From Gracilibacillus salitolerans (GTDB lineage: Bacteria; Bacillota; Bacilli; Bacillales; Amphibacillaceae): a stretch of 64,000 nt of DNA. The stretch is taken from positions 4,278,001 through 4,342,000 of the forward strand of contig NZ_CP045915.1 in NCBI RefSeq assembly GCF_009650095.1, read 5' to 3'. Position numbers and translations under genes: made by a program. Positions 39,594 to 62,645 of the stretch are shown piece after piece. Position 1 is the stretch's first letter, and every line of letters starts with the position of its first letter. The notes under the pieces are model-generated. The model made no database searches. It was given only the letters and a program-made list of their open reading frames with translations, and was not told the DNA's origin.

Positions 39594-40394
39594 TTATTCC
39601 TCTACCCTACTAACTAAAAACCAACCATTCAATAGATTCTCTCTATTATAATAAAACCGCTCATCATCTTCATGTCGAGTAACAGATCCACCCGCTGCTT
39701 CAACAATGGCTTGACCTGCACCTGTATCCCATTCCATCGTTGGTGCATATCGTGGATAGTAGTCTGCTTTTCCTTCTGCTACTAAACAAAACTTTAACGA
39801 GCTTCCTGATGAAACAACCTCTGCTTCTCCATCTAGTTGATCAATAAACTCTTCCGTTTCTTTCGACATATGAGAACGACTAGCAACCACATTAATAACC
39901 TCAGACTCATTCACTTCAGGTAACCGAATACTTTGATTAACTAACTCTTCTTCATTCGCTACATTTACTTGAGAAGCATTGGTTAACTTATAAGCACCTT
40001 CACCCTTTACACCGAAATAGAAAGTATCTAATGCTGGAGCGTAAATAACGCCAAGGATTGGATAGTGCCCATCAATTAGTGCGATGTTCACCGTGAATTC
40101 ACCATTTTTCTTAATAAATTCTTTCGTTCCGTCTAAAGGATCCACTAACCAAAATTGCTCCCATTTCTTGCGCTCTTCAAATGGGATTTCCCTGCCTTCT
40201 TCACTTAACACAGGTATTGTAGAATCTATCTTATTTAGACCTTCTGCAATTACGTTATGGGATCTTTTATCCGCAATCGTTAAAGGTGAGTCATCCTTCT
40301 TTACTTCCACCTCAAAGTCTTGTTGATAGACATCCCTTATTTCTTTACCTGCATCTAAGCAAATTTTGAATAAATCATTGATATATGTATGCAT
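39594..40394 (-). CDS. cysQ: CysQ-type 3'(2'),5'-bisphosphate nucleotidase (copy 2)
   Basis: A 266-residue inositol-monophosphatase-superfamily protein that hydrolyses PAP to AMP and phosphate, removing the inhibitory product of sulfotransferases. Metal-site motifs are LSEEGREIPF, WLVDPLDGTKEF and MEWDTGAGQAIVEAAGG. ATG 40394 follows GAAGGAGG; the longer frame from 40424 starts inside the upstream gene. It lies 20 bases after the SLC13 permease gene and belongs to the sulfation module with cysD, cysNC and the sulfotransferase. Paralogue of 9410-10201. Confidence 0.87.
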   Translation of the reverse strand: MHTYINDLFKICLDAGKEIRDVYQQDFEVEVKKDDSPLTIADKRSHNVIAEGLNKIDSTIPVLSEEGREIPFEERKKWEQFWLVDPLDGTKEFIKKNGEFTVNIALIDGHYPILGVIYAPALDTFYFGVKGEGAYKLTNASQVNVANEEELVNQSIRLPEVNESEVINVVASRSHMSKETEEFIDQLDGEAEVVSSGSSLKFCLVAEGKADYYPRYAPTMEWDTGAGQAIVEAAGGSVTRHEDDERFYYNRENLLNGWFLVSRVEE

Positions 40395-40414
40395 AAAACA
40401 TCCTCCTTCATTTA

Positions 40415-42193
40415 TTAAAACCATACCACATTCACGATGGTTACGGTTATCAGCATCACGATGATACTTAACGGGGTTCCAACCTTGATATAATCACTAA
40501 AGGTATATCCACCAGGACCATACACAATTAAGTTGGTCTGATAGCCAATTGGTGTAATAAAACTTGCAGAAGCTGCAATAGCGATCGTCACGGCGAATCC
40601 CATATAATCTAAGGACAGCACCTCTGCCATCTCGATACCGATAGGCAACATTAACACGGCTGCTGCACTATTTGTAATCAACTCTGTGAAAATGTTGGTC
40701 AAAATATATACAGCGATTAATATCGCAATAATGCCAAGTGGTTCACCTATTTCTAAAAGTCCATTTGCCATCCATGATGCAAGTCCTGTTTTGGTCATCG
40801 CCGTTCCTACACCAAAGGCACTAGCAATTAATAGCAACACATGAAACTGTATTTTTTTCTTTGCTTCCTCTGGACTGATAATTTTGGTAATGATAAAAAT
40901 GAATACAGCTAAAAGCATGGCCTTAAACATCGATAACACATTTAATGTTACTGCTAGAATCATGGTAATAAGGACAATTAAAGAAAACCAGCCTTTTTTA
41001 CGATTCTCATTTAAATGATTCGGCGTTTCCATCGAGGATACAACATAAAAGTCATTTGATTGTTGATACGTTCGTATAAAATCTGAGCCGGTTAGTAATA
41101 ATAAAACGTCACCAGGCTTTAAGACAATATCTCCTATTTTACTTTTGATCCGTTCATTATTTCGGTGTACGGCTAAAACACCAGCATCAAACCTTGAACG
41201 AAATTGTGACTGCTTAATGGACTTAGATAACAAGGAGGATTGATGTGACACTACTGCCTCTACTAACTGAACATCACCATTCTTCAAATCATCCAAATCT
41301 AAATGAGTGCCTGTTTCTAATTGAAGCCCCTTTAATTGTTGTAATTCAGCAATCGTCGAGATTAATCCGGTAAAGATAAGTCGATCTCCAGCACGCACGA
41401 TCGTTGTCGACTTCACCGGAGAAACTCTTTCTGATTCACGAATAATTTCCACTAAATATAATCCTTTTAATTCACGTAAACCCGCTTTTTCCACTGTTTC
41501 ATTAATAAAAGCAAAACTATTAGAAACCGTCATTTCTGCGATATACTCACGGCTATCCTGTTTCACCTGTTCACTAAAACCCTTATTATGAGGAAGTAAC
41601 TTATAACCGATCGTAAACAAATAGATAAACCCGATAATCAAAACAGGTACACCTACAACAGCTAGTTGAAATAAGGTGAAACCTTTTAACCCATAATCTA
41701 ATAACATACCGTGAACGACTAGGTTTGTAGATGTACCAATCACCGTAATCGTTCCACCTAAAATAGTGACATAGGATAGTGGGATTAAAAATTTAGAGGG
41801 GGCGATTCCTCTTTCTTCACACCACTTCTTGATCATTGGCGTAAAGGTAACCACTATTGGGGTATTATTCAAAAAGGCAGACGATAAAGAGATCGGTAAA
41901 TAAAAACGAAACATAGAACCTCTAACCTTCTTGCTTTTACTCAACCACTGCTTCATCATCTGTTCGAGTAGACCATGTTTTTGAACAGCTCCTGCTACGA
42001 TAAATAATAAGGCAATCGTAAGCATCCCTTGATTTGAAAAGCCTTTAAATGCTTCTTCTGGAGTTAATAGTCCTGTTAAAACAAAAATTACTAAAGCAGA
42101 AAACACTATCATATCAGGACGAGTAAGTTCTAATAACAAAGCTACAAACATAACGACAATAACCACTAATACAAATCCCATTTCAAGTGTCAA
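40415..42193 (-). CDS. SLC13/DASS-family anion permease with TrkA_C domains, probable sulfate importer
   Basis: A 592-residue membrane protein. N- and C-terminal transport halves with about 11 to 13 helices carry typical DASS motifs (FLNNTPIVVTFTPMIKKWCE, then GTSTNLVVHG; in the second half TNSAAAVLMLPIG and PIGYQTNLIVYGPGGY). Between them at about 200-370 lie two cytoplasmic TrkA_C domains (VRAGDRLIFTG, LKPGDVLLLLTG). Such proteins carry sulfate in bacteria. TTG 42193 is the probable start since GGAGGTGA is correctly spaced before it; the ATG at 42211 overlaps that site. The location between cysNC and cysQ supports sulfate uptake for PAPS synthesis. Confidence 0.88.
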   Translation of the reverse strand: MTLEMGFVLVVIVVMFVALLLELTRPDMIVFSALVIFVLTGLLTPEEAFKGFSNQGMLTIALLFIVAGAVQKHGLLEQMMKQWLSKSKKVRGSMFRFYLPISLSSAFLNNTPIVVTFTPMIKKWCEERGIAPSKFLIPLSYVTILGGTITVIGTSTNLVVHGMLLDYGLKGFTLFQLAVVGVPVLIIGFIYLFTIGYKLLPHNKGFSEQVKQDSREYIAEMTVSNSFAFINETVEKAGLRELKGLYLVEIIRESERVSPVKSTTIVRAGDRLIFTGLISTIAELQQLKGLQLETGTHLDLDDLKNGDVQLVEAVVSHQSSLLSKSIKQSQFRSRFDAGVLAVHRNNERIKSKIGDIVLKPGDVLLLLTGSDFIRTYQQSNDFYVVSSMETPNHLNENRKKGWFSLIVLITMILAVTLNVLSMFKAMLLAVFIFIITKIISPEEAKKKIQFHVLLLIASAFGVGTAMTKTGLASWMANGLLEIGEPLGIIAILIAVYILTNIFTELITNSAAAVLMLPIGIEMAEVLSLDYMGFAVTIAIAASASFITPIGYQTNLIVYGPGGYTFSDYIKVGTPLSIIVMLITVTIVNVVWF

Positions 42194-42222
42194 TGAGGAA
42201 TCACCTCCCATTTAAAGCGTAT

Positions 42223-42254
42223 AAGCTACTACCATTTTCACTTGATAGTAGCTT
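42223..42254 (-). terminator. Hairpin between cysNC and the permease gene
   Basis: A perfect 9-bp stem, AAGCTACTA (42223-42231) with TAGTAGCTT (42246-42254), lies right after the cysNC stop codon. The U-tract is poor, so it may only attenuate transcription into the permease gene. Confidence 0.5.
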
Positions 42255-42262
42255 TCCAACTG

Positions 42263-44089
42263 TTAGTCCAAAAATTTCATTATTTCTTTGACTACATAAT
42301 CTGTAGCTTCTTCTAATGAATATTCACTTGTATCGATTTCAATCTCAGGATTTTTTGGTTGTTCATATGGACTGGAAATACCCGTAAAGTTTGGAATCTC
42401 ACCTAGACGAGCTTTCTTGTATAACCCTTTTACATCTCGTTGTTCACATACTTCAAGTGGAGTACTTACAAAAATCTCGATATAGGAATCCCCAATAATT
42501 TCACGAGCATTTTGTCTGTCACTTTCATAAGGTGAAATGAAAGAGGTTATTGCAACAAGGCCGGCATCATTCATTAATTTACCAACTTCCGCAATACGAC
42601 GAATATTCTCGACACGATCCTGTTCTTTAAAGCCAAGGTTTTTATTCAAACCATGGCGAACATTATCCCCATCTAATAACATCGTATGATGCCCTGTTGC
42701 TACAAGGCGTTTTTCCACTTCATTAGCAAGAGTTGACTTCCCAGATCCTGAAAGTCCTGTAAACCATAGTGTTAATGGTTTTTGCCCTTTTTGTTGAGCG
42801 CGTACTTCTCTTGAAATATCTGTTTCCTGCCAAACCACATTAGTAGAACGACGTAAGGCATGTTCAATCACACCACATGCAGAAGTCATATTGGTAACCC
42901 GATCAATTAAAATAAGCCCACCTAATGCTTCATTATTTTCAAATTTATCGAAGACCATATTCTCTGATAAAGAAATATCACATTCTACCAGTTCATTTTT
43001 AAAGATTTTATCAGCTGGAATCTCTTTACCTGTGTTAATATCAATTTTATGTTTAATCGACATCACAGTCCCTGGCAACATTTTGGTTCCGACTTTAACC
43101 AAGTAGTTTCTACCTTCTACTAATTCCGCGTCATCCATCCAAAGAATAGAAGCAGAAAACATATCAGTAACCTGAATATTCTCTGAAGAGGTTAAGACAC
43201 ATCCTCTAGAAACATCGACTTCACGATCCAATTGAACCGTTACAGGCTGACCAGCACTTGCTTCTGAAGCTTCATATTCTGTAACAAGTATGCTTTTCAC
43301 TTTTGCTCTTTCCTGACTTGGAAGTGAAATGATCTCATCGCCTTCTTTAATATTACCAGCTTCTATTTGTCCCTGGAAACCTCTAAATGTATGATTTGGA
43401 CGACTTACACGCTGCACTGGCATAACAAATTCCTGTTCAGCAGCATCGTCAACTACTTCGATATCTTCTAAATAGGGCAATAATGCTTTTCCGTCATACC
43501 AAAGCGTATGGTCTGATTTTTTAGTAATATTATCGCCTTCTGTTGCAGATACAGGGATCACTTGAATACTTTCCAAATTAAAACCATAAGTCATTTGTTG
43601 AAAGTCTTTTTTAATCTCTTCAAAACGTTTTTGATCATAGCCTACTAAATCCATTTTATTAACAGCAAGGACAATATGTTTAATTCCCATTAATGCACAA
43701 ATACGTGCATGGCGTTTTGTTTGGCTAATGACACCTTTTGTTGCATCCACCAAGATTACAGCTAAATCAGCGAAGGACGCCCCAACTGCCATATTACGCG
43801 TATATTCCTCATGCCCAGGAGTATCGGCAACAATGAATGAACGATTGTCTGTTGTAAAATAACGATAAGCTACATCTATGGTAATCCCTTGTTCCCGTTC
43901 AGCCATTAAACCGTCAAGTAAAAGAGAATAATCTATTTCTCCACCACGGCTACCTACCTTTGAATCTAGTTCTAAGGCTTTTTCCTGATCCGCAAATAAT
44001 AGTTTAGCATCATACAGCATATGACCAATCAAAGTTGATTTTCCGTCATCGACGCTACCACATGTAATAAACTTCAATAAACCCTTCAT
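42263..44089 (-). CDS. cysNC: Fused sulfate adenylyltransferase subunit 1 and APS kinase (CysN-CysC)
   Basis: A 608-residue bifunctional enzyme. The N-terminal GTPase CysN (about 1-420) has P-loop GSVDDGKST, AEREQGITIDVAYRYF, VADTPGHEEY and NKMDLVGYD; it drives APS synthesis by CysD. The C-terminal APS kinase (about 430-608) has P-loop GLSGSGKSTLANEVE, DGDNVRHGLN, and FISPYESDRQNAREI; it makes PAPS. ATG 44089, one base after the cysD stop, is chosen over the ORF start at 44146, which lies inside cysD. No PAPS reductase or sulfite reductase gene is nearby, so PAPS is more likely used for sulfation. Confidence 0.93.
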   Translation of the reverse strand: MKGLLKFITCGSVDDGKSTLIGHMLYDAKLLFADQEKALELDSKVGSRGGEIDYSLLLDGLMAEREQGITIDVAYRYFTTDNRSFIVADTPGHEEYTRNMAVGASFADLAVILVDATKGVISQTKRHARICALMGIKHIVLAVNKMDLVGYDQKRFEEIKKDFQQMTYGFNLESIQVIPVSATEGDNITKKSDHTLWYDGKALLPYLEDIEVVDDAAEQEFVMPVQRVSRPNHTFRGFQGQIEAGNIKEGDEIISLPSQERAKVKSILVTEYEASEASAGQPVTVQLDREVDVSRGCVLTSSENIQVTDMFSASILWMDDAELVEGRNYLVKVGTKMLPGTVMSIKHKIDINTGKEIPADKIFKNELVECDISLSENMVFDKFENNEALGGLILIDRVTNMTSACGVIEHALRRSTNVVWQETDISREVRAQQKGQKPLTLWFTGLSGSGKSTLANEVEKRLVATGHHTMLLDGDNVRHGLNKNLGFKEQDRVENIRRIAEVGKLMNDAGLVAITSFISPYESDRQNAREIIGDSYIEIFVSTPLEVCEQRDVKGLYKKARLGEIPNFTGISSPYEQPKNPEIEIDTSEYSLEEATDYVVKEIMKFLD

Positions 44090-44090
44090 T

Positions 44091-44990
44091 CTAGAAATAC
44101 CCCTCTCTCTTACGACGTTCCATACTACCAGCAGCTTCCTGATCAATCACTCGGCTTGTCCGTTCAGAAGAAACCGCACCTAACGTTTCTTCAATAATAT
44201 CATCTAACGTATCTGCCTCTGATTCAACACCACCAGTAAGAGGGTAACAACCTAATGTACGAAAGCGAACTTTCTTATACTGAATTTCTTCACCAGGTTC
44301 TAACTTCAAACGATCATCATCCACCATTACAATATTGCCATCACGTTCAACAATTGGACGCTCTTTCGCAAAGTATAATGGCACAATATCAATTTCTTCC
44401 TGACGGATATACTGCCAAATATCTTTTTCCGTCCAGTTAGAAAGAGGAAATACACGCATGCTTTCACCCTTATTAATTTTGGTGTTATAAAGCTTCCACA
44501 TTTCAGGCTTTTGATTCTTCGGATCCCAGGCATGGTTCTTGTTACGGAAAGAGAAAACTCTTTCTTTCGCACGTGATTTTTCCTCGTCACGACGACCACC
44601 ACCAAATGCAGCATCAAAACCGTATTTATCAAGACCTTGTTTTAAGGCCTGTGTCTTCATAATATCCGTGTAGCTTGCGCCATGATCAAATGGGTTAATG
44701 CCTTGTTCTACACCTTCTTGATTGGTATGTTCTAGCATTTCAATACCTAATTCTTTTGCTTTACGATCACGGAAATCGATCATTTCTTTAAACTTCCATG
44801 TTGTATTAATATGCATGAAAGGAAATGGAGGTTTCTCCGGATAAAAAGCTTTTATTGCAAGATGTAACATAACAGAACTGTCTTTACCAATTGAATATAA
44901 CATAACTGGATTTTCGCATTCTGCAGCTACTTCTCTTATTATGTATATTGCTTCTGCCTCGAGTTGGTCGAGGTGGGTTAGGTGATCCAT
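44091..44990 (-). CDS. cysD: Sulfate adenylyltransferase subunit 2 (CysD)
   Basis: A 299-residue ATP pyrophosphatase of the PAPS-reductase-like fold that forms APS from ATP and sulfate with CysN. PP-loop motif [20 protein letters not shown] is near the N-terminus, then [20 protein letters not shown] and the C-terminal [23 protein letters not shown] 44990 follows TAAGGAGG. It is directly upstream of cysNC and 92 bases downstream of the sulfotransferase gene. Many Bacillaceae use a single-chain Sat instead of CysDN, so this type may have been acquired with the polysaccharide locus. Confidence 0.93.
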
Positions 44991-45082
44991 GATAGTGCCT
45001 CCTTAGAAAAATACGATCATAAAATACTCTTTATATATTCTATTGCTACTTAGAGTAGCTTCTATTTATATTAATTTAAATT

Positions 45083-45862
45083 TTAATTAGAATAGTAATA
45101 CTTTTCTACAACATTATCAATATTTTCTATTTGTGTGTCAGAAAGCTGGTGTTTCCACTTTTCTAATGATTCTATTTTCATTTTATACGGAGGGAAAGGA
45201 GAATGTAATTCTAAAAATTTTGCAATATTCACTAAGCATGGTTCCGGATTCTTAACTAAACTTTCATAATTTATAACCATTAATCTATTCCCCAATGATA
45301 ATTTTAGTTCATCCATCTTCTTTGCGTGTGAGCACCATCTTAATGCAGCTCTTTCTTCTGGCGCCATACTTTCATACTCGGAAACATTTTCAGTAGTTAT
45401 ACCTAAAAATTCATTTGGGATAGGGAAATCACTCCAATTTTTTTGCCAACGTAGAACTCCTTCATGTTTTAACATACTTGCAACAACAGAATATGGCTCT
45501 CTTTGTATTCCAATAAATTTTGCATTTGGGAATATAGAAGATAACTCCTCACTGATCCAGATATTGGAATGACTTTTATCAACATAATGTTTAGGAGCTA
45601 CTTTTGCATGTTCAATTTTATATTTCCGAACCAAATTCGGTAGTAATCTCTCTTTTTTTTCCTTATTTAAAGCAATAGTTGTAGCCATTGTAAAAATTTT
45701 TGGTTTTTCAATTGTCGCATTAATTAAGTGGTGACTATCTAATACATAGCCCAACAGATGTGTACCGGAGCGACCACTTCCTAAAACAAAAATTTTTCTT
45801 GTGTCTTTTGATTCATCCTTTGCAGCTAAATATTTAAGGCTTAAGTTTTTTATCAGTGACAT
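45083..45862 (-). CDS. PAPS-dependent sulfotransferase
   Basis: A 259-residue sulfotransferase of the Sulfotransfer_1/3 fold. The 5'-phosphosulfate loop is VLGSGRSGTHLLGYVLDS (about 26-43), and the 3'-phosphate-binding segment is FIGIQREPYSVVASMLKHEG (about 116-135, with Arg121 and Ser129). It would move sulfate from PAPS to a hydroxyl, most likely of the polysaccharide made by the surrounding genes. There is no signal peptide, so sulfation would happen in the cytoplasm, before export. It sits between the flippase gene and cysD. ATG 45862 follows GAGGAG. Confidence 0.85.
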   Translation of the reverse strand: MSLIKNLSLKYLAAKDESKDTRKIFVLGSGRSGTHLLGYVLDSHHLINATIEKPKIFTMATTIALNKEKKERLLPNLVRKYKIEHAKVAPKHYVDKSHSNIWISEELSSIFPNAKFIGIQREPYSVVASMLKHEGVLRWQKNWSDFPIPNEFLGITTENVSEYESMAPEERAALRWCSHAKKMDELKLSLGNRLMVINYESLVKNPEPCLVNIAKFLELHSPFPPYKMKIESLEKWKHQLSDTQIENIDNVVEKYYYSN

Positions 45863-45905
45863 TCTAAAACTCCTCTACTCTTATTTTATTTTTATTGCTT
45901 ATTAC

Positions 45906-47228
45906 TTACAGCCTTCTTTTAAATAACTTAAAGCCATTTCCGACTATAGAAGGGTATATTTTAACTTTTTTATAAACCCAAAATGCTAGTAATGCATTCC
46001 ATAACATTAAGCTTACTGATGTTGCTATTGCAGCCCCATTAATTCCCCATACCGGAATTAATAGTGAATTTAATATAATATTACATATCGCAGAAATAAC
46101 TACTCCAAATGCGCTGAATTTTTCATTACCTGTCATATTTAATAAGTTACCCACTGACCCAAATGCAGCACTTACTAATTGACCTAGACTCAAAATAGCT
46201 AATGCTATTCCACCTCTTGCAAAATCAGCACCATAAATAAAATGCAGAATCCAACTACCGAAAATTATAAATATTAATGAAACAGGGAGAGCGAAAGCAA
46301 ATGCTACTCTATTACTCAAGGTTACAATTCTTTGAAGTTTACACTTTTCCTCTTTGATAAACAATTTCGAAAATTGTGGCGCCATGACTGAATTAACCGC
46401 TGAAAGTGCAAAAACTATTAATGTTGCTGCATTTATAACAACTTGGTAGATTCCTACTTCTATTGAAGAGCGAATTGCACCTAACATAATAATATCAAGT
46501 TTATTATTAATTAACATCATTCCACCAACAAATAATAAAGGTAACGCACTATGAACCCATTTTTTAATTTCATATTTTGGTTTTTTACTTTTAATGTTGA
46601 TTAGTAAATTATTATATAGTAAAGCAGCACCAATTAAAAAAGCTATAAGTACTGATAGAACTCTTAAAAACATGGCTTCAATTGAATTTATTTCTTCAAA
46701 AAAAATAGTGGCAATTAGTGAAAAAGAAATAAATACAAATGGTAGAATTATATGTTCTGGCAACTGCCCAATTATTACTCTATTTATACCTCTTAAGGCA
46801 GCTGCTCTTAACGAATTTAATGCCATTAAGGGTAATAATAATAACGATATTAGAAAAGTATTATAAGCAATTGAATCATTATCACCTACAAAGTACCAAC
46901 TAATGAGAAACGAAAAAAACATAATAAATATTGCTATTAACAAGACACTTTTATTTGTTAAATTAATTAAACCTTTTAAAAAATTCCATTCTGATTTAGT
47001 TTTATATGAGGCGCTAAATCTAACAATGACATTTGGTAAACCTAAAGTTGTTGGTACGCTTAATATACTAATAATAGAAATTGCATATGCATAATGACCA
47101 TAGTTTTCAACTCCCAATGTGCGTGCTAGTATTATACTGACAAGAAAAGTAAGGAAAGTTCCTGTTATTTTAATAATAAAACTTCCAGACAATACTTTTG
47201 CTAGTTGAGAGTTTTTTAATTTGTTCAT
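45906..47228 (-). CDS. wzx: Wzx-type polysaccharide flippase (MOP family)
   Basis: A 440-residue protein with about 12 to 14 membrane helices of the polysaccharide-synthesis exporter type. It flips lipid-linked repeat units across the membrane. The N-terminus LSGSFIIKITGTFLTFLVSI, the LARTLGVENYGHYAYA motif and NLLNMTGNEKFSA are characteristic. ATG 47228 is selected because GGAGG is 5 bases before it. It is next to the sulfotransferase and pyruvyl transferase genes. Confidence 0.9.
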   Translation of the reverse strand: MNKLKNSQLAKVLSGSFIIKITGTFLTFLVSIILARTLGVENYGHYAYAISIISILSVPTTLGLPNVIVRFSASYKTKSEWNFLKGLINLTNKSVLLIAIFIMFFSFLISWYFVGDNDSIAYNTFLISLLLLPLMALNSLRAAALRGINRVIIGQLPEHIILPFVFISFSLIATIFFEEINSIEAMFLRVLSVLIAFLIGAALLYNNLLINIKSKKPKYEIKKWVHSALPLLFVGGMMLINNKLDIIMLGAIRSSIEVGIYQVVINAATLIVFALSAVNSVMAPQFSKLFIKEEKCKLQRIVTLSNRVAFAFALPVSLIFIIFGSWILHFIYGADFARGGIALAILSLGQLVSAAFGSVGNLLNMTGNEKFSAFGVVISAICNIILNSLLIPVWGINGAAIATSVSLMLWNALLAFWVYKKVKIYPSIVGNGFKLFKRRL

Positions 47229-47269
47229 GCGATCCTCCATGACTTTTACAATTATTAAGCACAAATAAA

Positions 47270-48361
47270 TCATTCTAATAAATATTTATCTAATTGCATA
47301 AAATGTTGTTCTGATTTTTTAGCTTGTTTTGAAACATCAATTAAATTTAATTGCATACCCTTATATACATCAGCAACATCTAAATTTTCAAGTTGATTAA
47401 AATCGGTATATAAACCATCAAAGCCCACATCCTTCATTACGTTTGTCATCTTTTGGCTATAAACGATAGGAAATACAGGCTTATTAAACACCCACCCTAG
47501 AATCATAGCATGAAATCTTGTTGCAACAACAAATTTAGAATTTGCAATCGTTTGTAATGCTTCTTTTATATTATATTTGTAATAATGTTTCTTAACCTTT
47601 ATTTTATTTCTATCAGGTAATAATTCTAAAATCTCTTCAACAGCTTCTTTGTCACCTTCCTTTTCACAAAATGACATAAGTGTAACATAATATCCCTTTT
47701 CATTTAAATAAATAATAGTGTCCTTGATCTTTTTATAATAAATTTCATCATAATTCTCTAACTGCTTTCTAACCGATGGCCTAATTACAGAAATAACAAC
47801 ATTATTTTTTTCTTCTTTTATCTTTAAATCCTCTTTTAATTGAAAAACAATATCATCTGCTAACCTTACATTAGGAAGATCTTTAAATAATTCATATGAA
47901 TAACTATCTCTAAAGCAAATATCTGTATACTTGGAAAATAAATTTTTATATGCTAGAAAATATTCACTATCAATAAATGGCCCAAAGTTGGCTCCTAATA
48001 AATAAAAAGGTTTATTTTTAATTTGCATACCTTCTTTATTTTCAAATTGATTTTTCCAATTATTAACTTGCATAAAAATAGAACCTCCTATATTTACGGC
48101 AGCATCACACTTTTTTGCAATTTTTGTACGTAAAAAAGGCCTATTTACTTTAAGTACTCTAAAAATAAAATTACCTACCTTGACTAACAATGTGTCACTA
48201 GGGAATATACTAATATTTTGTAGATCTTCAAAAAGTTTCTTATAACCTTTTGGAGCATATAATAAAAACTGAGTATTAGTGTATCTTTCACATAGTAGCT
48301 TTATAAATAAGTCATCTCCTAAATTCAAATTTGAATAAGCATAAATCATGACTTTCTTCAT
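47270..48361 (-). CDS. Polysaccharide pyruvyl transferase family protein
   Basis: A 363-residue protein of the PS_pyruv_trans family (CsaB/WcaK type) that puts pyruvate ketals on sugars using phosphoenolpyruvate. Features include the N-terminal MIYAYSNLNLGDDLFIKLL, YLLGANFGPFIDSEYFLAYK, ICFRDSYSYELFK and the C-terminal FVVATRFHAMILGWVFNKP. ATG 48361 with AAGGAAAG upstream is assumed. Pyruvyl groups add negative charge, as does the sulfation predicted next door, so the polymer is probably strongly anionic. Confidence 0.85.
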   Translation of the reverse strand: MKKVMIYAYSNLNLGDDLFIKLLCERYTNTQFLLYAPKGYKKLFEDLQNISIFPSDTLLVKVGNFIFRVLKVNRPFLRTKIAKKCDAAVNIGGSIFMQVNNWKNQFENKEGMQIKNKPFYLLGANFGPFIDSEYFLAYKNLFSKYTDICFRDSYSYELFKDLPNVRLADDIVFQLKEDLKIKEEKNNVVISVIRPSVRKQLENYDEIYYKKIKDTIIYLNEKGYYVTLMSFCEKEGDKEAVEEILELLPDRNKIKVKKHYYKYNIKEALQTIANSKFVVATRFHAMILGWVFNKPVFPIVYSQKMTNVMKDVGFDGLYTDFNQLENLDVADVYKGMQLNLIDVSKQAKKSEQHFMQLDKYLLE

Positions 48362-48373
48362 TTTTAAAACCAA

Positions 48374-49012: not shown

Positions 49013-49942
49013 TTATTTAAGACCTTTTCGACGATTATAGGCAGCATAAATCGGTCGGAAGCTTAAAATATAAGTTTTAAATAGAATTTTCTTATTGTAT
49101 TTAGTTGTTCTATACCTATATAGAAGTTCTCTAGCTTCCTTGCGTTTATTTATGGAAATCAAAAACCTTGCTTTGGAAATCAACCTACTTATCATATACT
49201 CTTCAAAATAGATAGAGGTATTTCCTTTATTTCGTTCTTTAATAAGAACTTCTTCTGCGTAACTCATAAAGGATTTATTGTATTCTATTTCCTTTCGTGT
49301 TGCCATATTTTCTGCATCTTTATAGTATCTAGCGAGCGATTTATTTGAGAAAACTATTTTATATTTTAAAGCAATTCTACACCACATGTCTAAATCTTCA
49401 CCTCTGGTAATACCCAATGGAAAGTAACCTACTTTATTAAAAACCTCCTTAGGTATTACCACGGAAGACGCTGAAATCAACGGAGTTTTAATGGACTCTT
49501 TAAAGTAACTTCCAACTATTCCTTCCCAATTTAGATCAAAACTATTATTCTCATTAGATGGATCGACTGCCCCGTTACTTTTTACAAACTCATAGGAAGT
49601 AGCGTATGCTCCATTCTTTGGATACATGTTAATAAGTTTATTAATTGTCTCTAAAAATTCTGGCTTCCATGCATCGTCTGCATCTAAAAAAGCGATATAA
49701 TCGAAATTCGCGTTATATATCCCTTTATTTCTGGCTGCTGATACACCTGCATTTTTTTGCTGAATCACTTTTATTTTAGAATTATTAATACTTCTAATTT
49801 TCTCTACACTAAAATCAGTTGAGCCATCATCTATTACAATAATTTCAAAATTCTTGTAAGTCTGATTTAGAACGGAATCAATAGCTCTTTTGATAGCCTT
49901 TTCTTTATTATACAGTGGAATCACTACTGTGAAATGCATCAT
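49013..49942 (-). CDS. Family 2 glycosyltransferase
   Basis: A 309-residue GT-A fold enzyme. The nucleotide-sugar site is TVVIPLYNKEKAIKRAIDSV at the start, IIVIDDGSTD near residue 40 and the DxD motif AFLDADDAWKPEFLE near 86; the acceptor region contains TRGEDLDMWCRIAL (ED acid motif). It adds one sugar of the repeat unit in the cytoplasm; donor and acceptor are unknown. ATG 49942 follows GGTGAT. Confidence 0.88.
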   Translation of the reverse strand: MMHFTVVIPLYNKEKAIKRAIDSVLNQTYKNFEIIVIDDGSTDFSVEKIRSINNSKIKVIQQKNAGVSAARNKGIYNANFDYIAFLDADDAWKPEFLETINKLINMYPKNGAYATSYEFVKSNGAVDPSNENNSFDLNWEGIVGSYFKESIKTPLISASSVVIPKEVFNKVGYFPLGITRGEDLDMWCRIALKYKIVFSNKSLARYYKDAENMATRKEIEYNKSFMSYAEEVLIKERNKGNTSIYFEEYMISRLISKARFLISINKRKEARELLYRYRTTKYNKKILFKTYILSFRPIYAAYNRRKGLK

Positions 49943-50283
49943 ATCACCATTTTTCAATCTATATTTATTATCACACTTAAATTTCTTTCAACTTTCTTGT
50001 ATATTCATTAGTTCAGTAAGTGCCAATCCCATACACGTTTCAAACTCAATGCAATTTTAGATTACTACTGAGTAATTTTTAGTGAATGACTCAAAACAAA
50101 TTTTGAAGTATTATTACTATTATGAGTTTATATTATTTTTCTATCCTAGAGTCATATTTTTATATAAATTCATATATTCCTCCAACAAGCTTAATATCAT
50201 AGATGTCCTTCATAAGGATTTTGAATACTTATAATAAAAGAAAAATCGGCAATTTAAAATATTTTCGATTACACTTCTTCCGT
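49943..50283. other. Intergenic stretch, nothing recognised
   Basis: AT-rich, with no open frame, strong hairpin or repeat that could be supported. It separates the GT2 and ATP-grasp genes of the polysaccharide locus. Confidence 0.4.
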
Positions 50284-51195
50284 TTACTCACAATTAGGAG
50301 TTTTTATCCACTCCCCCATTTCCATATCAAACTCTTTTGGCTGGATTTTTCCGTAACCTGATTGATGAAAGAATGTCATTTCTCCAAAGTATACTTTTCC
50401 ATTTACATAGTAAAAATCAACTCTCACATGTGGTATATTCTTAGACAAAATTTTACTCAAATTAATCATCTTATTTAGCTCAATAGGTTTTGGTACTACC
50501 TCTGACAACTCTCTTGGATAAGATATACTTCCATTCATTAAATTCCATTCTAAGTCATACAAATTTCTTCTCGTCTTAGATTTATCAGTTATATTGAAAT
50601 CAACTGCTATAAAGCGAGGTATACCATTGAAACAGAAGAATCTATAATCTTTAAGATCTGTTCCATGTTCATCTTCCATATATTTTTCACATACAATTCG
50701 CGGCTTCACATTTTTATATGGCCACTCCCCATATATATAGTAGTAATTTTTCTTTAGACACTTTGTTATTTTTTCTTTCGCCGCATTAATATCAAGTCTA
50801 CTTTTATCTTTACAAATTACTAGTCCACCTGAGTCGTGAGTACATTTTAAGACAAATTGGTTTGGTAACTCACTGAAATCAATTTCATCAAAACTATCAT
50901 ATACTCCCAGTAGCGGTGTAAGATATTCTTCTCCAATAGTTGTTACAATATATTTTCGAACTTCATATTTATCAACTAATTGTGTATATATTGGATTTCT
51001 ATCATATAATTTTAAATATTGTAACTTTTCATTAAATGTTTTAGGATCTTTCAAGTTAAGTTTATTGCCAGTCTTTAATTTATAAGTAATTTTTAAATAT
51101 AATGTATCTGGAATGAATCTAAAAATTTTTAATCGTAATATATATAAAAGTGTTATTTTAGGTTCATTTAATGCTGTTTTCAACTGTCTAAACAT
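50284..51195 (-). CDS. TupA-like ATP-grasp protein
   Basis: A 303-residue protein of the ATPgrasp_TupA family, common in capsule and teichuronopeptide loci; TupA-like proteins are thought to ligate an amino acid or peptide to a sugar acid. Signatures are LKDPKTFNEKLQYLKLYDRN, then TPLLGVYDSFDEIDFSELPN, FVLKCTHDSGG, YGEWPYKNVKPRIVCEKYM, DYRFFCFNG and the metal-binding HVRVDFYYVNGKVYFGEMTF. An amide-linked substituent on the polymer is therefore possible. ATG 51195 follows GGTGAT. Confidence 0.85.
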   Translation of the reverse strand: MFRQLKTALNEPKITLLYILRLKIFRFIPDTLYLKITYKLKTGNKLNLKDPKTFNEKLQYLKLYDRNPIYTQLVDKYEVRKYIVTTIGEEYLTPLLGVYDSFDEIDFSELPNQFVLKCTHDSGGLVICKDKSRLDINAAKEKITKCLKKNYYYIYGEWPYKNVKPRIVCEKYMEDEHGTDLKDYRFFCFNGIPRFIAVDFNITDKSKTRRNLYDLEWNLMNGSISYPRELSEVVPKPIELNKMINLSKILSKNIPHVRVDFYYVNGKVYFGEMTFFHQSGYGKIQPKEFDMEMGEWIKTPNCE

Positions 51196-51269: not shown

Positions 51270-52472
51270 TTACAAACCATTAGTTTTCCTTCTGCTTTCA
51301 ACTACAATTACCCTGCTTATTATACTTCCTACAGCTAATAGAATACTAAAATGCTTACTATTATAGTAAACTAAACCAATAGACATTACTATGTAAGAAA
51401 TAATTATTGCAATAAAAGTATAGCAAATTGTTTTATATTTATTATTTTTAGCAGTCTTAAACAAATCTTTTAATACTACAAAATGAAGAAGATAAAAGAC
51501 TAATACTCCTAATATTCCTGTACCAACCAATAGTTCAATAAAATTATTATGGGAATAAAAGTTTCCTCCTCCATAACTACTCAATAAATATTTATAATTA
51601 TCTATACCATATCCGGTAAGCGGTTGGTCTTTAAACATCTCTAATCCAAAAGAAGTCAACTGATTTCTAACATTTATTGATGCCTCCTCATTACTATCTT
51701 CGATTATAAATGAGATTAAGTTTTCAACTCTATTGCCGATTATCTCATAAAAAATTGGAACATTGAATATTAAATAAGAAATGACGAGTAATATAAATAA
51801 ACCTATTACTACAAACTTGATTTTGTTGCTAAACCCTTTTCTATTTCTAAAGTATAATATAATTATCATATTTAATATTATAAATAATAATGCTTTTCTG
51901 GAACCTGTTAATAAAATAGTGGGAACCATTATAAACAATAATAATATATACCAATATTTTTTTTCTTCCAAAATAAAATAGATGCAAAATGTTGCTGCTA
52001 TACCAATTATAATCCCGACTGAGTTCACGTTTCCTAATTGATCTCCAAATCTTATCAACGTAGAAAAATCTGAAGAAAGTAATATATATATACTCGCTAT
52101 ACTTCCTGAATATACAAAGGAAACCATAAATCTCTCTAACTTATCAATAGTATCTATATAATTAACTAGAGAAATCATGACTAAAAAAATAAAAAACAAA
52201 GATCTAATTTGTATTATTACAGCATCTTGATTAATTGAAAATATGATTGAAATAATAACTAATAAAAAAAACATTAAATAAATTAATAGCGCATTATTAA
52301 AGACAAGTTTTCTTTTACTGAGCAAAAAGTTTGTCCATATCAAAAAAATAAGTAATAACGATATAATATTACTAATTAAACTTAAACCTTCTATAAATAC
52401 AAATATATATAAGCTAAGAATGAAAAAAAATATTATTATATTTATTAACTTATTTAGAGATAACTGCTTCAT
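51270..52472 (-). CDS. wzy: O-antigen ligase/polymerase family protein (Wzy)
   Basis: A 400-residue protein with 10 to 12 membrane helices and the Wzy_C loop: GSRKALLFIILN near residue 190, then LTSFGLEMFKDQPLTGYGID and YSHNNFIELLVGTGILG. It joins flipped repeat units on the outer face of the membrane. ATG 52472 is chosen because AAGGTGAAG lies directly upstream. With Wzx it marks the locus as Wzx/Wzy-dependent. Confidence 0.88.
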   Translation of the reverse strand: MKQLSLNKLINIIIFFFILSLYIFVFIEGLSLISNIISLLLIFLIWTNFLLSKRKLVFNNALLIYLMFFLLVIISIIFSINQDAVIIQIRSLFFIFLVMISLVNYIDTIDKLERFMVSFVYSGSIASIYILLSSDFSTLIRFGDQLGNVNSVGIIIGIAATFCIYFILEEKKYWYILLLFIMVPTILLTGSRKALLFIILNMIIILYFRNRKGFSNKIKFVVIGLFILLVISYLIFNVPIFYEIIGNRVENLISFIIEDSNEEASINVRNQLTSFGLEMFKDQPLTGYGIDNYKYLLSSYGGGNFYSHNNFIELLVGTGILGVLVFYLLHFVVLKDLFKTAKNNKYKTICYTFIAIIISYIVMSIGLVYYNSKHFSILLAVGSIISRVIVVESRRKTNGL

Positions 52473-52580
52473 TAGCTTCACCTTAATTCTATATTTACTA
52501 CGGCAAGACCAATATTCATGATCATTGAAGCACTACATTATAATCTAGTATATTTAGATATAAAGGAGATGCAACCGATT

Positions 52581-53663
52581 TTAACCGCTCTTGATTACGT
52601 CATTAATGTAATCTGTCCACATTTTAATTATATCTTTTGGATAATATTTTTCTATTACTTTTTGTGCTTCTTCCCCGTACTGTTCAGCAACTTCCGGCCT
52701 TTCTATCAAAAATAAAATTGCAGAAGCTATTTTATCAACCTCTCCAGTAGGAACTATTAATCCATTCTTACCATTTTCTATAAGTAATTCTGCACCACCC
52801 GGACTACAATTGGTCGTAACAACTGGCAATCCCACCGCCATAGCCTCTATTAAAGCATTAGGTATACCCTCGTAATCTGAGGTGAGAACAAACATTCTAG
52901 AATTTTTTAATTTGTTTTTAACATCATTCACTTTTCCTGCGAAGAAAACATTATCTGACAAATTATATTCCTTAACCATCTCTTGAACCTTCAACAAATC
53001 AGGACCATCACCATAAAACACTAGCTTTATATCTCTATGTGTTTCAACTACTTTATAAAATGCCTTCACCATTACATCTTGCCTTTTTTGTTTAATATTA
53101 AATCTAGCAACAAACGCAATTTCATTTTTCTTACTTCCGGATGGTATGCGTTCCTCACGATCAATTGTTACAGGGTTTGGTATTACTATACTTTTTTTTC
53201 GAATTATTTCTTTATAATATTCCTTGGCACCTTCTGTTTGAAATACCGCTCCGGAAGCAAACCTATAAAAAGATCTCATAAAAGAGAGAGAGAGACTTTT
53301 TTCATTATAGGGATCGGATCTTTCACATATTATGACTGGGATATTTTTAAATGCTGCACTTAAAATAGAAAGAAAGTTTGAGTTATTTAGAAATGATATG
53401 ATTAAATCTGGATTAGTAGCTTCAATAACTCTTCTCATCTGAAAAATCGGAAGTGTCTTTTTAGAATAAATGCTAGTTTGTGCTTTGTTTCCAGGTATAT
53501 ATTTAATTTCTTTATCTAAGAAGTAGTGATTATTATCACTTGCATAAGTATAAACACTAACCTGATAACCTAAGCGGTTAAGATTATTCGCAAGGAAAGA
53601 GAGCATCTTTCCTGCCCCACCATAGTTCATTAGAGATATTACAAATAAAATTTTTACCTTCAA
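52581..53663 (-). CDS. Family 4 glycosyltransferase
   Basis: A 360-residue GT-B enzyme. N-terminal glycine-rich SLMNYGGAGKMLSFLANNLN, LIISFLNNSNFLS, and C-terminal donor-site EX7E-like region DYEGIPNALIEAMAVGLPVV followed by TTNCSPGGAELLI. Similar to GalNAc- or GlcNAc-transferring members, but the sugar is not certain. The TTG at 53663 is the probable start, with GAAGGG upstream at a somewhat long distance. Confidence 0.87.
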   Translation of the reverse strand: MKVKILFVISLMNYGGAGKMLSFLANNLNRLGYQVSVYTYASDNNHYFLDKEIKYIPGNKAQTSIYSKKTLPIFQMRRVIEATNPDLIISFLNNSNFLSILSAAFKNIPVIICERSDPYNEKSLSLSFMRSFYRFASGAVFQTEGAKEYYKEIIRKKSIVIPNPVTIDREERIPSGSKKNEIAFVARFNIKQKRQDVMVKAFYKVVETHRDIKLVFYGDGPDLLKVQEMVKEYNLSDNVFFAGKVNDVKNKLKNSRMFVLTSDYEGIPNALIEAMAVGLPVVTTNCSPGGAELLIENGKNGLIVPTGEVDKIASAILFLIERPEVAEQYGEEAQKVIEKYYPKDIIKMWTDYINDVIKSG

Positions 53664-53717: not shown

Positions 53718-54614
53718 TTATAAGAATTTATGGGGAATACTTTTATAAGACTTCTTAGCATATATTTTGTAAATAGTATAGGGTAATATATACATTAACC
53801 TTGATAAGATTTCCAAGTATTTAGTATTTTTTATAAATCTCTCACTTACATTATTTAAGCACTTACTAATGAAATTAGATGCCTTATATGCGAACCTTAT
53901 GGGAACTGGTAAACTCGTTAGTAGATTTTTATCTTTTTTAATTTCATTCCAAATTGAGGCTCTATCATCAATTTGCACTTTTGCTCTGAAACCTGCATTT
54001 GAACCTCTTACCCTAAATCTAGTATAAACACCATTTACATACCCGATAGGATTATCCCTTGCGATATATCTATAGAAGGCACCATCTTGCCCATATCTTT
54101 TCTCAATAGGAAATCTAATATTACTATCTATTAGTATTTTTCTTAATATAACTACACAGGAAGTTTGTATTTTTAGAGATATAAAACAATCTATAAATAT
54201 ATTACCACTATAAATACTAGTATTTATAGATTTTGTCTTATTCGTGTTTTCCCAAAACATCTCATATGAATGCTGGCTCCAAATATAACCATTTGATTCC
54301 ATTTCTGAAATTTGAATTGTTAGTTTATCTTTATCCCATATATCATCAGAGTCAAGAAAGGCTATATATTTCCCAGAAGATTTTTCTATTCCTAAATTTC
54401 TCGCAGATGCCGGACCGCCATTTTTTTTATTTATTATTATTATTGATGATCCGAATATATTTTTTACCTCTTCCATACTTTCTGAAGACCCATCATTTAT
54501 GACCAAAATTTCTATATTTTTATAAGTTTGTTTTACAACACTATTAATAGCTTCTATAAGCCAATGCATTCCTGAGTAAAATGGTATTACTACACTAACT
54601 AAAGGTTGTTCCAT
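53718..54614 (-). CDS. Family 2 glycosyltransferase
   Basis: A 298-residue GT-A enzyme with VSVVIPFYSGMHWLIEAINS at the N-terminus, ILVINDGSSE, and the DxD motif FLDSDDIWDKDKL near residue 91. The C-terminal third is basic and may contact the membrane. Its start codon lies next to the end of the CapG gene and is preceded by GGGGG, part of the CapG stop region, so the two are probably coupled. Confidence 0.88.
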   Translation of the reverse strand: MEQPLVSVVIPFYSGMHWLIEAINSVVKQTYKNIEILVINDGSSESMEEVKNIFGSSIIIINKKNGGPASARNLGIEKSSGKYIAFLDSDDIWDKDKLTIQISEMESNGYIWSQHSYEMFWENTNKTKSINTSIYSGNIFIDCFISLKIQTSCVVILRKILIDSNIRFPIEKRYGQDGAFYRYIARDNPIGYVNGVYTRFRVRGSNAGFRAKVQIDDRASIWNEIKKDKNLLTSLPVPIRFAYKASNFISKCLNNVSERFIKNTKYLEILSRLMYILPYTIYKIYAKKSYKSIPHKFL

Positions 54615-54617
54615 TGA

Positions 54618-55742
54618 TTATTTCCCCCAAACAACTCTGTTCACATAATCGGTATAAGATATGATTATTCTTAATACTTTTTCAGACACATTTGGCATGT
54701 TATAATCCTCTACCAATCTTAAAGTACATTTTTCTTGTGATTCTAGTACATCAAGTCCTTGTAACACTCTGTCTTTTCCTAAGCCAACCATCATTACAGA
54801 CGCTTCTTCCATAGCTTCTGGTCTTTCGTGAGCTTGTCTTATATTAAGGGCTTTAAATCCAAGAATTGAAGACTCTTCACTAATTGTTCCACTATCACTA
54901 AGAACTGCTTTAGCTTTCATTTGAAGTTTGACATAATCATTAAATCCTAGAGGTTTCATAGTTTTCACTAATGGATTAAATTCGATCCCTTTGGACTCAA
55001 TCACTTTTCTGGTTCTAGGGTGTGTACTCACTATAACTGGCATTGTATATTTTTCAGCAATTGCATTTAAGTTATCAATTAAATCTTGGAAATTGGCGTC
55101 TGAATTAATGTTTTCTTCTCTGTGAGCAGATACTACAAAATAGTTACCTTCTTCTAAATCCAGTTTTTCTAAAACTGTTGAATTCTCTATATCTTCCTTT
55201 CTTGAGTTAAGAACTTCAAACATAGGGCTTCCTGTTTTTATAATTCTATCAGATGGAAATCCTTCTCTGAGAAGATATTCTCTAGCAATATCACTGTATG
55301 TTAAATTAATATCCGCTGTATGATCTACAATTTTTCTATTTGTTTCTTCCGGGACCCTTTGGTCAAAACATCTATTTCCTGCTTCCATATGAAATATAGG
55401 AATATGACGTCTTTTAGCTGCAATAGCACATAAACAGCTATTGGTATCACCTAACACTAAAAATGCATTTGGTTCTACTTCTTCCATAATAGGATCAATT
55501 TTAACAAGTATATTTCCAATAGTTTCTACTGCCGTTCCAGTAGCTGCATTAAGAAAATAATCAGGTTTTTTTAGATTAAAATCTTTAAAGAACACTTCAT
55601 TTAATTCATAATCATAATTTTGTCCTGTATGGACAAGGGTATGTTCTATTGCATTTGATTGTTCTAACTTATTAATAACTGCTGAAAGTCTAATTATTTC
55701 TGGTCTAGTACCAACAACGGTCATAACTTTTAACTTCTTCAT
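54618..55742 (-). CDS. capG: UDP-N-acetylglucosamine 2-epimerase family enzyme (CapG/FnlC type)
   Basis: A 374-residue non-hydrolysing epimerase of the WecB/FnlC group. Motifs include VVGTRPEIIRLSAVINKLE at the N-terminus, HTGQNYDYELNEVFF, then HMEAGNRCFDQRVPEETNRK and SDSGTISEESSILG. In the L-FucNAc pathway it carries out the last step, making UDP-L-FucNAc from UDP-L-PneNAc. That role follows from the capE and capF genes directly upstream in the order E-F-G, as in Staphylococcus aureus type 5/8 loci. Confidence 0.9.
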   Translation of the reverse strand: MKKLKVMTVVGTRPEIIRLSAVINKLEQSNAIEHTLVHTGQNYDYELNEVFFKDFNLKKPDYFLNAATGTAVETIGNILVKIDPIMEEVEPNAFLVLGDTNSCLCAIAAKRRHIPIFHMEAGNRCFDQRVPEETNRKIVDHTADINLTYSDIAREYLLREGFPSDRIIKTGSPMFEVLNSRKEDIENSTVLEKLDLEEGNYFVVSAHREENINSDANFQDLIDNLNAIAEKYTMPVIVSTHPRTRKVIESKGIEFNPLVKTMKPLGFNDYVKLQMKAKAVLSDSGTISEESSILGFKALNIRQAHERPEAMEEASVMMVGLGKDRVLQGLDVLESQEKCTLRLVEDYNMPNVSEKVLRIIISYTDYVNRVVWGK

Positions 55743-55745
55743 CGA

Positions 55746-59087: not shown

Positions 59088-59123
59088 TTAAATCATTCTC
59101 CTTATTTTCACTTAAAAGCCTTT

Positions 59124-59849
59124 TTACAGATTCCACAAATGATAAATTTGGTGACATTCTACTTGTTTACAACCAACATTATGATAAAAGTTAATTGCAC
59201 CCATGTTTCGTACTTGGGTACCAACTTTAATTTCTTTAACACCTTGTTGGTGTGCCCCATATTCTACTGCCTTAAAGAGACTAGTCCCAATGCCACCTTT
59301 AGTCTCTTTCTTAGAAACAGCAATTAGCTCAATTACACATACATTATCTACATATGAAAATAATAAGAAACCATTTATAACGCCTATTTCATCCTTAGAT
59401 AATGCATAAAACTTGTCCGGATTTCCAAAAGAATTAATAAGCCATTGTTGATAGACACGATCTCCACCTCGTTTAGCTAATTCAAGGTCCTCTGTAAATT
59501 TCGAGAACTTAAAATCTGCTATTTCAGTGATTTGATCATTTTTTTCTAATGCTTGGTGAATTGTTACGCTCTTTGGTTTTTCATCTAAACCTACTAGTTC
59601 TTTCTCAAATTGAATATTTATATCTGCTAAAAACGCTGGTGTATCTTTCCCAATAAACTGTGCATTAATAGGGTCAGAGTTTTTATTCACGATTGATATA
59701 AATTGATAATCTTTAAACCTAGTCTTTAATTCAGCCCATTCATTGAATGTAAGAGGTTTATGTAAAGTAGCTTTAGCACTTGTAACACCGAAAAACTCTG
59801 TATCCCATGCCAATTTATTGAAGGTCACTGCCTCTTCAAGATTTATCAA
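59124..59849 (-). CDS. GNAT-family N-acetyltransferase
   Basis: A 241-residue protein with an N-terminal extension and a C-terminal GNAT domain (about 140-235: VCVIELIAVSKKETKGGIGT contains the acetyl-CoA loop, then VGTQVRNMGAINFYHNVG). The overall layout recalls WecD, which acetylates a 4-amino-4,6-dideoxy sugar nucleotide. Placed with a dehydratase, an aminotransferase and an initiating transferase, it probably N-acetylates a UDP-4-amino sugar. It begins at TTG 59849 behind GGGGTGA. Confidence 0.82.
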   Translation of the reverse strand: MINLEEAVTFNKLAWDTEFFGVTSAKATLHKPLTFNEWAELKTRFKDYQFISIVNKNSDPINAQFIGKDTPAFLADINIQFEKELVGLDEKPKSVTIHQALEKNDQITEIADFKFSKFTEDLELAKRGGDRVYQQWLINSFGNPDKFYALSKDEIGVINGFLLFSYVDNVCVIELIAVSKKETKGGIGTSLFKAVEYGAHQQGVKEIKVGTQVRNMGAINFYHNVGCKQVECHQIYHLWNL

Positions 59850-59868
59850 GAAAAATTCACCCCTTACC

Positions 59869-61744: not shown

Positions 61745-61755
61745 ATTAGTATTCC

Positions 61756-62582: not shown

Positions 62583-62645
62583 TAATAATTTTGTTGTTTT
62601 AGTTTCTTTAAAAAAGAAGGGCATTAAACCCCACCTCACACTATA

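Follow-up and report, generated by a model that had tools for sequence, protein, structure and literature searches.

A probable sulfation module at the end of an exopolysaccharide operon of Gracilibacillus salitolerans and its counterparts in related genomes

Introduction

In rhizobia, NodP (a CysD-like protein) and NodQ (a fusion of CysN and CysC) supply 3'-phosphoadenosine-5'-phosphosulfate (PAPS) to a sulfotransferase; the acceptor of this NodPQ-NodH system is a lipochitooligosaccharide, and the system is not known to have a permease/cysQ cassette in an exopolysaccharide (eps) operon. The capsule locus of Cobetia marina KMM 1449 contains a cysN/cysC fusion, cysD, cysQ and the genes of a sulfate permease and of sulfotransferases, and its polymer was studied by nuclear magnetic resonance, the sulfate being shown by Fourier-transform infrared spectroscopy and turbidimetry (PMC11766843). 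The capsule cluster of Vibrio sp. KMM 8419 holds second copies of cysC, cysN and cysD together with sulfotransferase genes, and the capsule is sulfated (PMC11641403), while rhizobial NodH is a sulfotransferase of family PF13469 (PMC11625862). The present work describes a related locus in a window of 64,000 nucleotides of Gracilibacillus salitolerans (assembly GCF_009650095.1, contig NZ_CP045915.1, positions 4,278,001 to 4,342,000; the coordinates given below without a locus name are those of the window), in which a sulfotransferase gene is followed by a PAPS-supply cassette of cysD, a cysN-cysC fusion (cysNC), a gene for an SLC13-type anion permease and cysQ.

Other published cases come from Gram-positive bacteria and from archaea. 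The wps-1 cluster of Actinoplanes missouriensis, described in 2026, is of the Wzx/Wzy/Wzz type and includes two predicted sulfotransferases, and a sulfated polysaccharide was proposed from the genes (PMC13390465). The exopolymer of Virgibacillus dokdonensis contains 9.9% sulfur by elemental analysis and shows an infrared band, sulfate having been inferred from the composition (PMC9570845). In Halobacterium salinarum, sulfotransferases modify the archaellin glycan of the motility filament (PMC11980604). Among the matches listed from open-licence PMC papers, as far as their titles, abstract openings and passages show, no earlier report of a polysaccharide locus with a PAPS cassette and a sulfotransferase was found for the Firmicutes.

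The proposed sulfation module

The cassette closes an eps-type operon of the Wzx/Wzy type with an epsC (EAR) RNA, and the five genes at its end, the sulfotransferase gene and the cassette, very probably constitute a dedicated sulfation module, as argued from gene families, genomic context and the comparison of genomes. The first-pass annotation of the window had placed wzx, a pyruvyl transferase gene, the sulfotransferase gene, cysD, cysNC, the SLC13 gene and cysQ on one strand, and the family scores confirm it: all seven genes, from the pyruvyl transferase to cysQ, are present, open and on the same (minus) strand.

The sulfotransferase gene (45083..45862) starts 43 bp downstream of wzx, and its product, a predicted PAPS-dependent enzyme, matches PF13469 (Sulfotransfer_3) with 70.9 bits against a cut-off of 27, over positions 2-212 of the 216 of the profile. 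The protein carries a GSGRSGT loop, and its residues G28, G30, R31, G33, T34, E52, R121 and S129 are invariant in 44 aligned sequences; we take a loop of this type to be the 5'-phosphosulfate loop and the R...S pair to be the 3'-phosphate motif. A profile search matches the protein to the tyrosylprotein sulfotransferase TPST1 (1.6e-11); the PAPS loops align, and E52 stands opposite the second glutamate of the GEET motif of TPST, a residue whose role is presumably catalytic. The predicted model (pLDDT 94.2) has its best PDB matches in 4gbm, 5wrj and 3ap3 and resembles the CurM sulfotransferase, tyrosylprotein sulfotransferases bound to 3'-phosphoadenosine-5'-phosphate (PAP) and heparan 3-O-sulfotransferases, the predicted fold being that of a sulfotransferase. 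Both the conserved residues and the model point to PAPS-dependent sulfate transfer by the enzyme of the window.

The four genes of the cassette follow on the same strand. The product of cysD (44091..44990) is the small subunit of ATP sulfurylase (PRK12563, 514.2 bits against 413; TIGR02039, 494.4 against 396.6), and cysNC (42263..44086, its real start probably being the ATG at 44086) joins the GTPase subunit of that enzyme to the kinase of adenosine 5'-phosphosulfate (APS) (PRK05506, 870.3 bits against 715), with the motifs GSVDDGKST, DTPGHE, NKMD and GLSGSGKS kept and the P-loops of GTPase and APS kinase intact. Next comes an SLC13-type anion permease with internal TrkA_C (RCK) domains (40415..42211; PF03600, 228.7 bits; PF02080; PF00939, Na_sulph_symp), which is over the cut-offs of PF03600 and PF00939 and under that of the DASS/SLC13 model TIGR00785 (133.3 bits against 198.6). 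It is presumed to be a sulfate importer because homologues stand in the sat cassettes described below and beside one cysH cluster. That cluster, in genome G016 (fetched locus L149, 7890-17034), has assimilatory cysH-cysJ-cysI-sat-cysC and then a homologue of the cassette permease at 56%, which supports a sulfate role for this type of permease. The last gene, cysQ (39594..40424, likely starting at the ATG at 40394), encodes a 3'(2'),5'-bisphosphate nucleotidase for PAP removal (TIGR01331, 297.1 bits against 228.8; PF00459). A second cysQ (9410-10201, minus strand), 78% identical to the first, lies among unrelated carbohydrate-uptake genes of the window, so the cassette holds an additional copy.

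Between wzx and cysQ the intergenic gaps measure -10 to 92 bp, which is what a single operon would show. A promoter scan of 39000-50500 gave 42 promoter-like sites, fewer than the 54.9 of shuffled sequences, and a terminator scan of the same stretch gave 5 against 4.7, which is the chance level.

In the mechanism proposed, the permease would import sulfate, APS would be made by CysD together with the CysN portion of CysNC, and the CysC portion would turn it into PAPS, the latter two steps being known for these families. The sulfotransferase would then pass sulfate from PAPS to a hydroxyl group, carried either by the lipid-linked repeat unit or by a nucleotide sugar, and this would happen in the cytoplasm, since PAPS is cytoplasmic and a hydropathy scan finds no membrane segment in the enzyme (maximum 0.76 over 19 residues). 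CysQ, by its family, would clear the inhibitory PAP, and Wzx would flip the pyruvylated, sulfated unit for polymerisation. Expression of the module would be expected to follow that of the eps operon and to be separate from that of a cysHJI-sat-cysC cluster under an S-adenosylmethionine (SAM) riboswitch elsewhere in the genome, and PAPS from the module may also feed two sulfotransferases of the organism's own flagellar glycosylation island.

Co-occurrence and linkage in other genomes

The first-pass annotation had proposed co-occurrence of the sulfotransferase with the cassette genes as a check, and it is found at the level of both gene content and gene position. A survey of 159 genomes of the family at curated cut-offs places CysD in 14 and PF13469 in 33; 13 of the 14 CysD genomes are PF13469-positive, and in the exception, Oceanobacillus limi (G101), there is a sulfotransferase-like gene to which no Pfam family could be assigned. 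The corresponding table (13/1/20/125) has a Fisher value of 1.7e-9, which, like the genome counts themselves, ignores relatedness. Within the genus (17 genomes) both families are present in nine and neither in eight, one of these eight (G029) being 73% complete.

As to position, 29 of the 33 PF13469-positive genomes have a sulfotransferase no more than 20 kb from CysD or Sat, and 40 of 55 PF13469 places are this close, where chance would give roughly 1-2% per gene (an estimate that assumes one or two CysD or Sat genes in some 4 Mb). These 55 are what is left of 59 PF13469 rows after G049, which is below the cut-off, and three second stretches of the same frames (two in G027, one in G024) were dropped; Sat places were taken from those genomes in which a PF13469 match was counted and from a few more. 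By contrast, for none of the 14 CysH places over cut-off in the 14 CysD genomes is a PF13469 place known at 20 kb or less: four have one on the same contig, some 0.4 Mb away, and the rest are on other contigs.

The cassette itself is well conserved, with cysD, cysNC and cysQ together in all 14 CysD genomes and the permease in 13 (G011 lacks it), which makes a chance arrangement unlikely. Neighbouring genes were named by blast against the proteins of the window and other labelled proteins, or by reading. They form an eps or capsule locus in ten of the 14 genomes (the window's own, G011, G016, G024, G027, G028, G030, G033, G035 and G082), a flagellar glycosylation island in O. limi and a CapE/CgeB/CapF/GT61 locus in G074; G025 has a single glycosyltransferase-like gene, and in G034 the contig begins at the cassette. 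Twelve of the 14 cassettes are in glycan loci, each with a sulfotransferase or sulfotransferase-like gene, at about 11 kb from cysD in G024 and G101. While CysD of the 13 other genomes is 86-98% identical to that of the window, only 28 of the 66 pairs of sulfotransferases (one per locus, n=12) align at E<1e-3, so that the system combines constant supply genes with variable transferases.

Among the genomes that lack CysD, 18 have a sulfotransferase at most 20 kb from sat, and one such locus each was fetched from 12 of these 18, in stretches of 12-20 kb. Ten of these loci have the order sat-SLC13-cysC, seven of the ten with cysQ as well, and the other two, both without permease, have a long, probably fused Sat (L127) and cysC-sat (L129). 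None of the 12 stretches has cysH, cysI or cysJ (by blast for 11, by reading for L120). One type of locus, with CapE, CgeB-like, StfV, CapF and GT61 genes and possibly devoted to a spore-surface glycan, carries the sat cassette in L120, L121, L122 and L128 and the cysD-cysNC cassette in L113, the sulfotransferase of L113 being 71% identical to that of L120. In a permease tree L113 pairs with L117, which also has a cysD-cysNC cassette (support 1.0), and falls outside the group of sat-cassette permeases (0.97), a placement which suggests that the cassette was exchanged as a whole unit. The tree is not clean, for L027 (a cysD-cysNC cassette of Calidifontibacillus) joins divergent sat-linked permeases with low support, and two further copies of the CapE/GT61-type locus (L157, and L141, where the CgeB-like gene was not seen) have no cassette in the fetched stretch. 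Unrelated ATP sulfurylases in the same slot beside the same sulfotransferase are the strongest evidence that PAPS supply is the job of the cassette.

Beyond the family, a class-wide search found CysD over cut-off in 14 of 398 genomes, and of their neighbourhoods seven were fetched and six read. L190 is assimilatory; L187 and L189, from the genus Salinicoccus, have a PKTATT/HKTATT-like gene near (called by reading in L187 and at 26% identity in L189); and L191-L193 have cysD-cysNC with no sulfur or sulfotransferase genes recognised nearby. Proteins of this PKTATT/HKTATT type stand beside cysD-cysNC in L037 (11915-13381), L048 (11951-13387), L058 (11843-13027) and L187 (10577-11542), and a Pfam scan of those in L037, L048 and L058 finds no family; all four may be undescribed sulfotransferases. 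Of the 30 genomes behind 32 of 80 CysNC loci (mostly Clostridia, Oceanobacillus limi and Calidifontibacillus included), PF13469 matched in only eight, and the sulfation reading is therefore not extended to Lachnospiraceae. In that family, cysD-cysNC is near glycosyltransferase genes and genes of a sulfate-type ATP-binding cassette (ABC) transporter in L062 (9088-16673, also with cysQ) and L099 (9085-15358), by reading, and downstream of two flagellin-like genes in L074 (1-18018). CysDNC by itself is not diagnostic of sulfation.

Alternative explanations

Several observations weigh against a module for sulfation of the exopolymer, and they are given here together with the alternatives to which they belong. 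The function was assigned in this organism from families and context, and a search of the genome for PF03600 finds at least four further permease genes over cut-off, so that the one in the cassette is not the sole member of its family. Four of the 33 genomes (G025, G034, G051 and G081) break the linkage rule, and the cge-like sulfotransferase locus of G046 (C29) and that of G081 have no cassette next to them.

The alternative that survives best, although it is an unlikely one, is that PAPS is made as proposed and the sulfotransferase acts on a surface protein, a lipid or the flagellin glycan, and not on the exopolymer. The best structural matches of the model include tyrosylprotein sulfotransferases, and the same genome has a flagellar glycosylation island (L118, G000:C1:1836001-1856000, 3530-17348) with flagellin, Maf-like, NeuB/NeuA-like and RmlA/RmlB-like genes (by reading), in which two PF13469 sulfotransferases are encoded (11559-12548 and 16338-17348); its flagellin glycan is possibly sulfated. 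Moreover, the protein closest to the window's sulfotransferase among the fetched loci, from G082 and with 52% identity, is encoded beside flagellin open reading frames (ORFs), and in O. limi (L116, 9751-15157) the whole set cysD-cysNC-SLC13-cysQ has pseudaminic-acid-type genes (called by reading and from weak blast matches) on one side and the gene of a 599-residue flagellin on the other. Nevertheless, the gene of the window follows wzx closely inside the eps operon, and an eps or capsule locus is where the cassette is found in most of the CysD genomes. The claim of the first-pass annotation that the cassette supplies PAPS for exopolymer sulfation is supported by the separate assimilation, the co-occurrence, the glycan loci around the cassettes and the swapping of cassettes, and has to be widened in one respect, as the two flagellar sulfotransferases mean that more than the exopolymer may be fed.

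Sulfotransferase or sulfotransferase-like genes are present in the flagellar islands of seven of the 14 CysD genomes (the window's own, G024, G025, G030, G034, G082 and G101), the call in G025 being a PF13469 match of 29.9 bits. In O. limi a sulfotransferase-like gene without Pfam family (L147, 8130-9125) precedes another flagellin. Its transferase family has no Pfam match over cut-off, some UniRef labels say sulfotransferase, and a fold search with the O. limi protein, which is of the PKTATT type, gave weak matches (best E 4.9e-4) that are mostly but not solely sulfotransferases. Among the matches listed from open-licence PMC papers no report of a sulfated bacterial flagellin was found, and the terms sulfotransferase, sulfate and sulfated gave no match in two papers on Gram-positive flagellar islands. 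A wider proposal, in our judgement slightly short of an even chance, is that halophilic Bacillaceae have a general surface-sulfation system in which two interchangeable PAPS cassettes would feed sulfotransferases acting on exopolymer, cge/GT61-type and flagellin glycans, and that the flagella of the group would thus be sulfated. If this is true, these flagella bear sulfated glycans and converge on the sulfated archaellum glycans of haloarchaea.

Less probable again is that the cassette is a redundant second set for assimilatory sulfate activation, placed by chance beside the eps operon, the sulfotransferase being incidental. CysDNC is assimilatory elsewhere, with cysH, cysJ and cysI in the Metasolibacillus-type loci L032, L033 and L190, and two CysD-positive genomes, G025 and G034, have cysH and no detectable sat, so that their cassette may also serve assimilation. 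The assimilatory contig of G034 stops just after cysI, and the missing sat is possibly an assembly gap; in G025 other genes follow cysI. It is also in G025 (L109, 8004-9829) that the cysNC frame is split, by decay or assembly error, with only one glycosyltransferase-like gene nearby and an assimilatory cluster that lacks sat.

What stands against a redundant set is the genome of G. salitolerans, in which a full cysH-cysJ-cysI-sat-cysC cluster (family searches identify cysH, sat and cysC, whereas cysJ and cysI were called by reading) lies 0.43 Mb from the cassette behind a SAM riboswitch (S-box, 86.6 bits); the S-box responds to methionine supply. The absence of cysH and sulfite reductase genes from the neighbourhood, noted in the first-pass annotation, holds as well: the whole-genome PF01507 search places CysH at that same distance, and no sulfite reductase gene was seen in reading the ORF lists of the window, where no family search for it was made. 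That the cassette might be the sole route of sulfate activation is ruled out by the sat and second cysC of the genome. In addition, PF13469 is present in all nine CysD genomes of the genus and in none of the other eight, G074 has the cassette and no cysH over cut-off, and the glycan loci with their sulfotransferase or sulfotransferase-like genes are the rule for the cassette. A dedicated sulfation module remains the preferred reading.

Finally, a sulfotransferase-like protein that no longer works with PAPS, beside a cassette left from an earlier state of the locus, is hardly credible: it has in its favour that only 43 other homologues were found at E<=0.001 among 486 candidates, the best at 53% identity (in a search covering only relatives that share short exact words), and against it the invariance of the PAPS-loop and catalytic-type residues, the confident model with a sulfotransferase fold and the open frames of all five module genes.

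The remainder of the operon

The host genome is a single contig of 5.09 Mb, and the operon, all of it on the minus strand, extends past the end of the window, just outside which its start has Wzz-like, tyrosine kinase-like, PHP phosphatase-like and UTP-glucose uridylyltransferase-like genes (by reading). The epsC RNA (62618..62729; RF01735, 87 bits against a cut-off of 42) is contained in a 1.08 kb stretch ahead of the gene of a DegT-type aminotransferase (60491..61759, an ORF called by reading only, with no family scan); such EAR elements are cis-regulatory and drive readthrough of long eps operons. There follow a glycosyltransferase, a GNAT acetyltransferase and an initiating sugar-phosphate transferase (57888..60507; PF00534, PF00583, PF02397), and then Epimerase_2, CapF-like and CapE-like genes (54618..57874; PF02350, PF14667+PF01370, PF02719+PF08485), which we take to be probably for UDP-N-acetyl-L-fucosamine synthesis. 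The next genes are those of a family 2 glycosyltransferase (53718..54614; PF00535), a group 1 glycosyltransferase (52581..53663; PF00534), a wzy-like polymerase of the O-antigen ligase family (51270..52481; PF04932), a TupA-like ATP-grasp protein (50284..51195; PF14305) and another family 2 glycosyltransferase (49013..49957; PF00535).

From the DegT-type gene to cysQ the gaps are below 100 bp save two, of 326 bp before the last-named glycosyltransferase and 639 bp before the pyruvyl transferase. The longer one (48374-49012) has 26.9% G+C and no convincing gene, and may be a remnant or the site of an internal promoter. The polysaccharide pyruvyl transferase (CsaB/WcaK-like) belongs to PF04230 (120 bits against a cut-off of 25.3) and fails the CsaB equivalog TIGR03609 (85.3 bits against 213.1). 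Its gene had been recognised correctly in the earlier annotation with a start at 48361, which is an in-frame ATG, the gene itself occupying 47270..48373. Between it and the module lies wzx, for an oligosaccharide flippase (45906..47273; PF01943, 72 bits against 28.2). G+C is 37-39% in the cassette genes, 24-32% in the sulfotransferase, wzx, pyruvyl transferase, next glycosyltransferase and wzy genes, and 35% in capE.

Comparison with known systems

The module provides a gene-level basis for sulfated exopolymers in Firmicutes, and the conserved cassette is a marker of sulfated surface glycans that can be read from genomes and told apart from assimilation when its neighbours are read too. It points to further candidate targets, namely flagella and a cge-like, possibly spore-surface, glycan, and because the linked sulfotransferases are very diverse, the group may yield new carbohydrate sulfotransferases.

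The locus resembles NodPQ-NodH in combining CysD and a CysN-CysC fusion with a PF13469 enzyme, and differs from it in that the rhizobial acceptor is a lipochitooligosaccharide. With C. marina it shares the same four-gene set in a polysaccharide locus; that organism, however, is a Gram-negative gammaproteobacterium with an ABC-transporter (Kps) capsule, whereas the set of the window belongs to a Wzx/Wzy eps operon, and neither an exchange of cassettes nor a flagellar link appears in the available parts of its account (PMC11766843). Vibrio sp. KMM 8419 is likewise Gram-negative with an ABC-transporter capsule, and its cysN and cysC are named separately, unlike those of the window (PMC11641403). 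As in these two bacteria, the PAPS genes and the sulfotransferase of the window lie in a polysaccharide locus and are extra to the assimilatory genes. A. missouriensis is Gram-positive like the host of the window, but it is an actinomycete, and the available main text on wps-1 has no PAPS or cysD terms (PMC13390465). H. salinarum, also a halophile, is a parallel for the flagellar reading only, its glycan being an archaeal N-glycan on an unrelated filament (PMC11980604).

The PAPS-supply set was thus already known from the sulfated-capsule loci of marine Gram-negative bacteria, a Gram-negative halophile among them (PMC11766843). What the present locus and its relatives add is the phylum, the interchangeable cassettes and the sulfotransferases in flagellin glycosylation islands, the last of which suggest that flagella, too, are sulfated.

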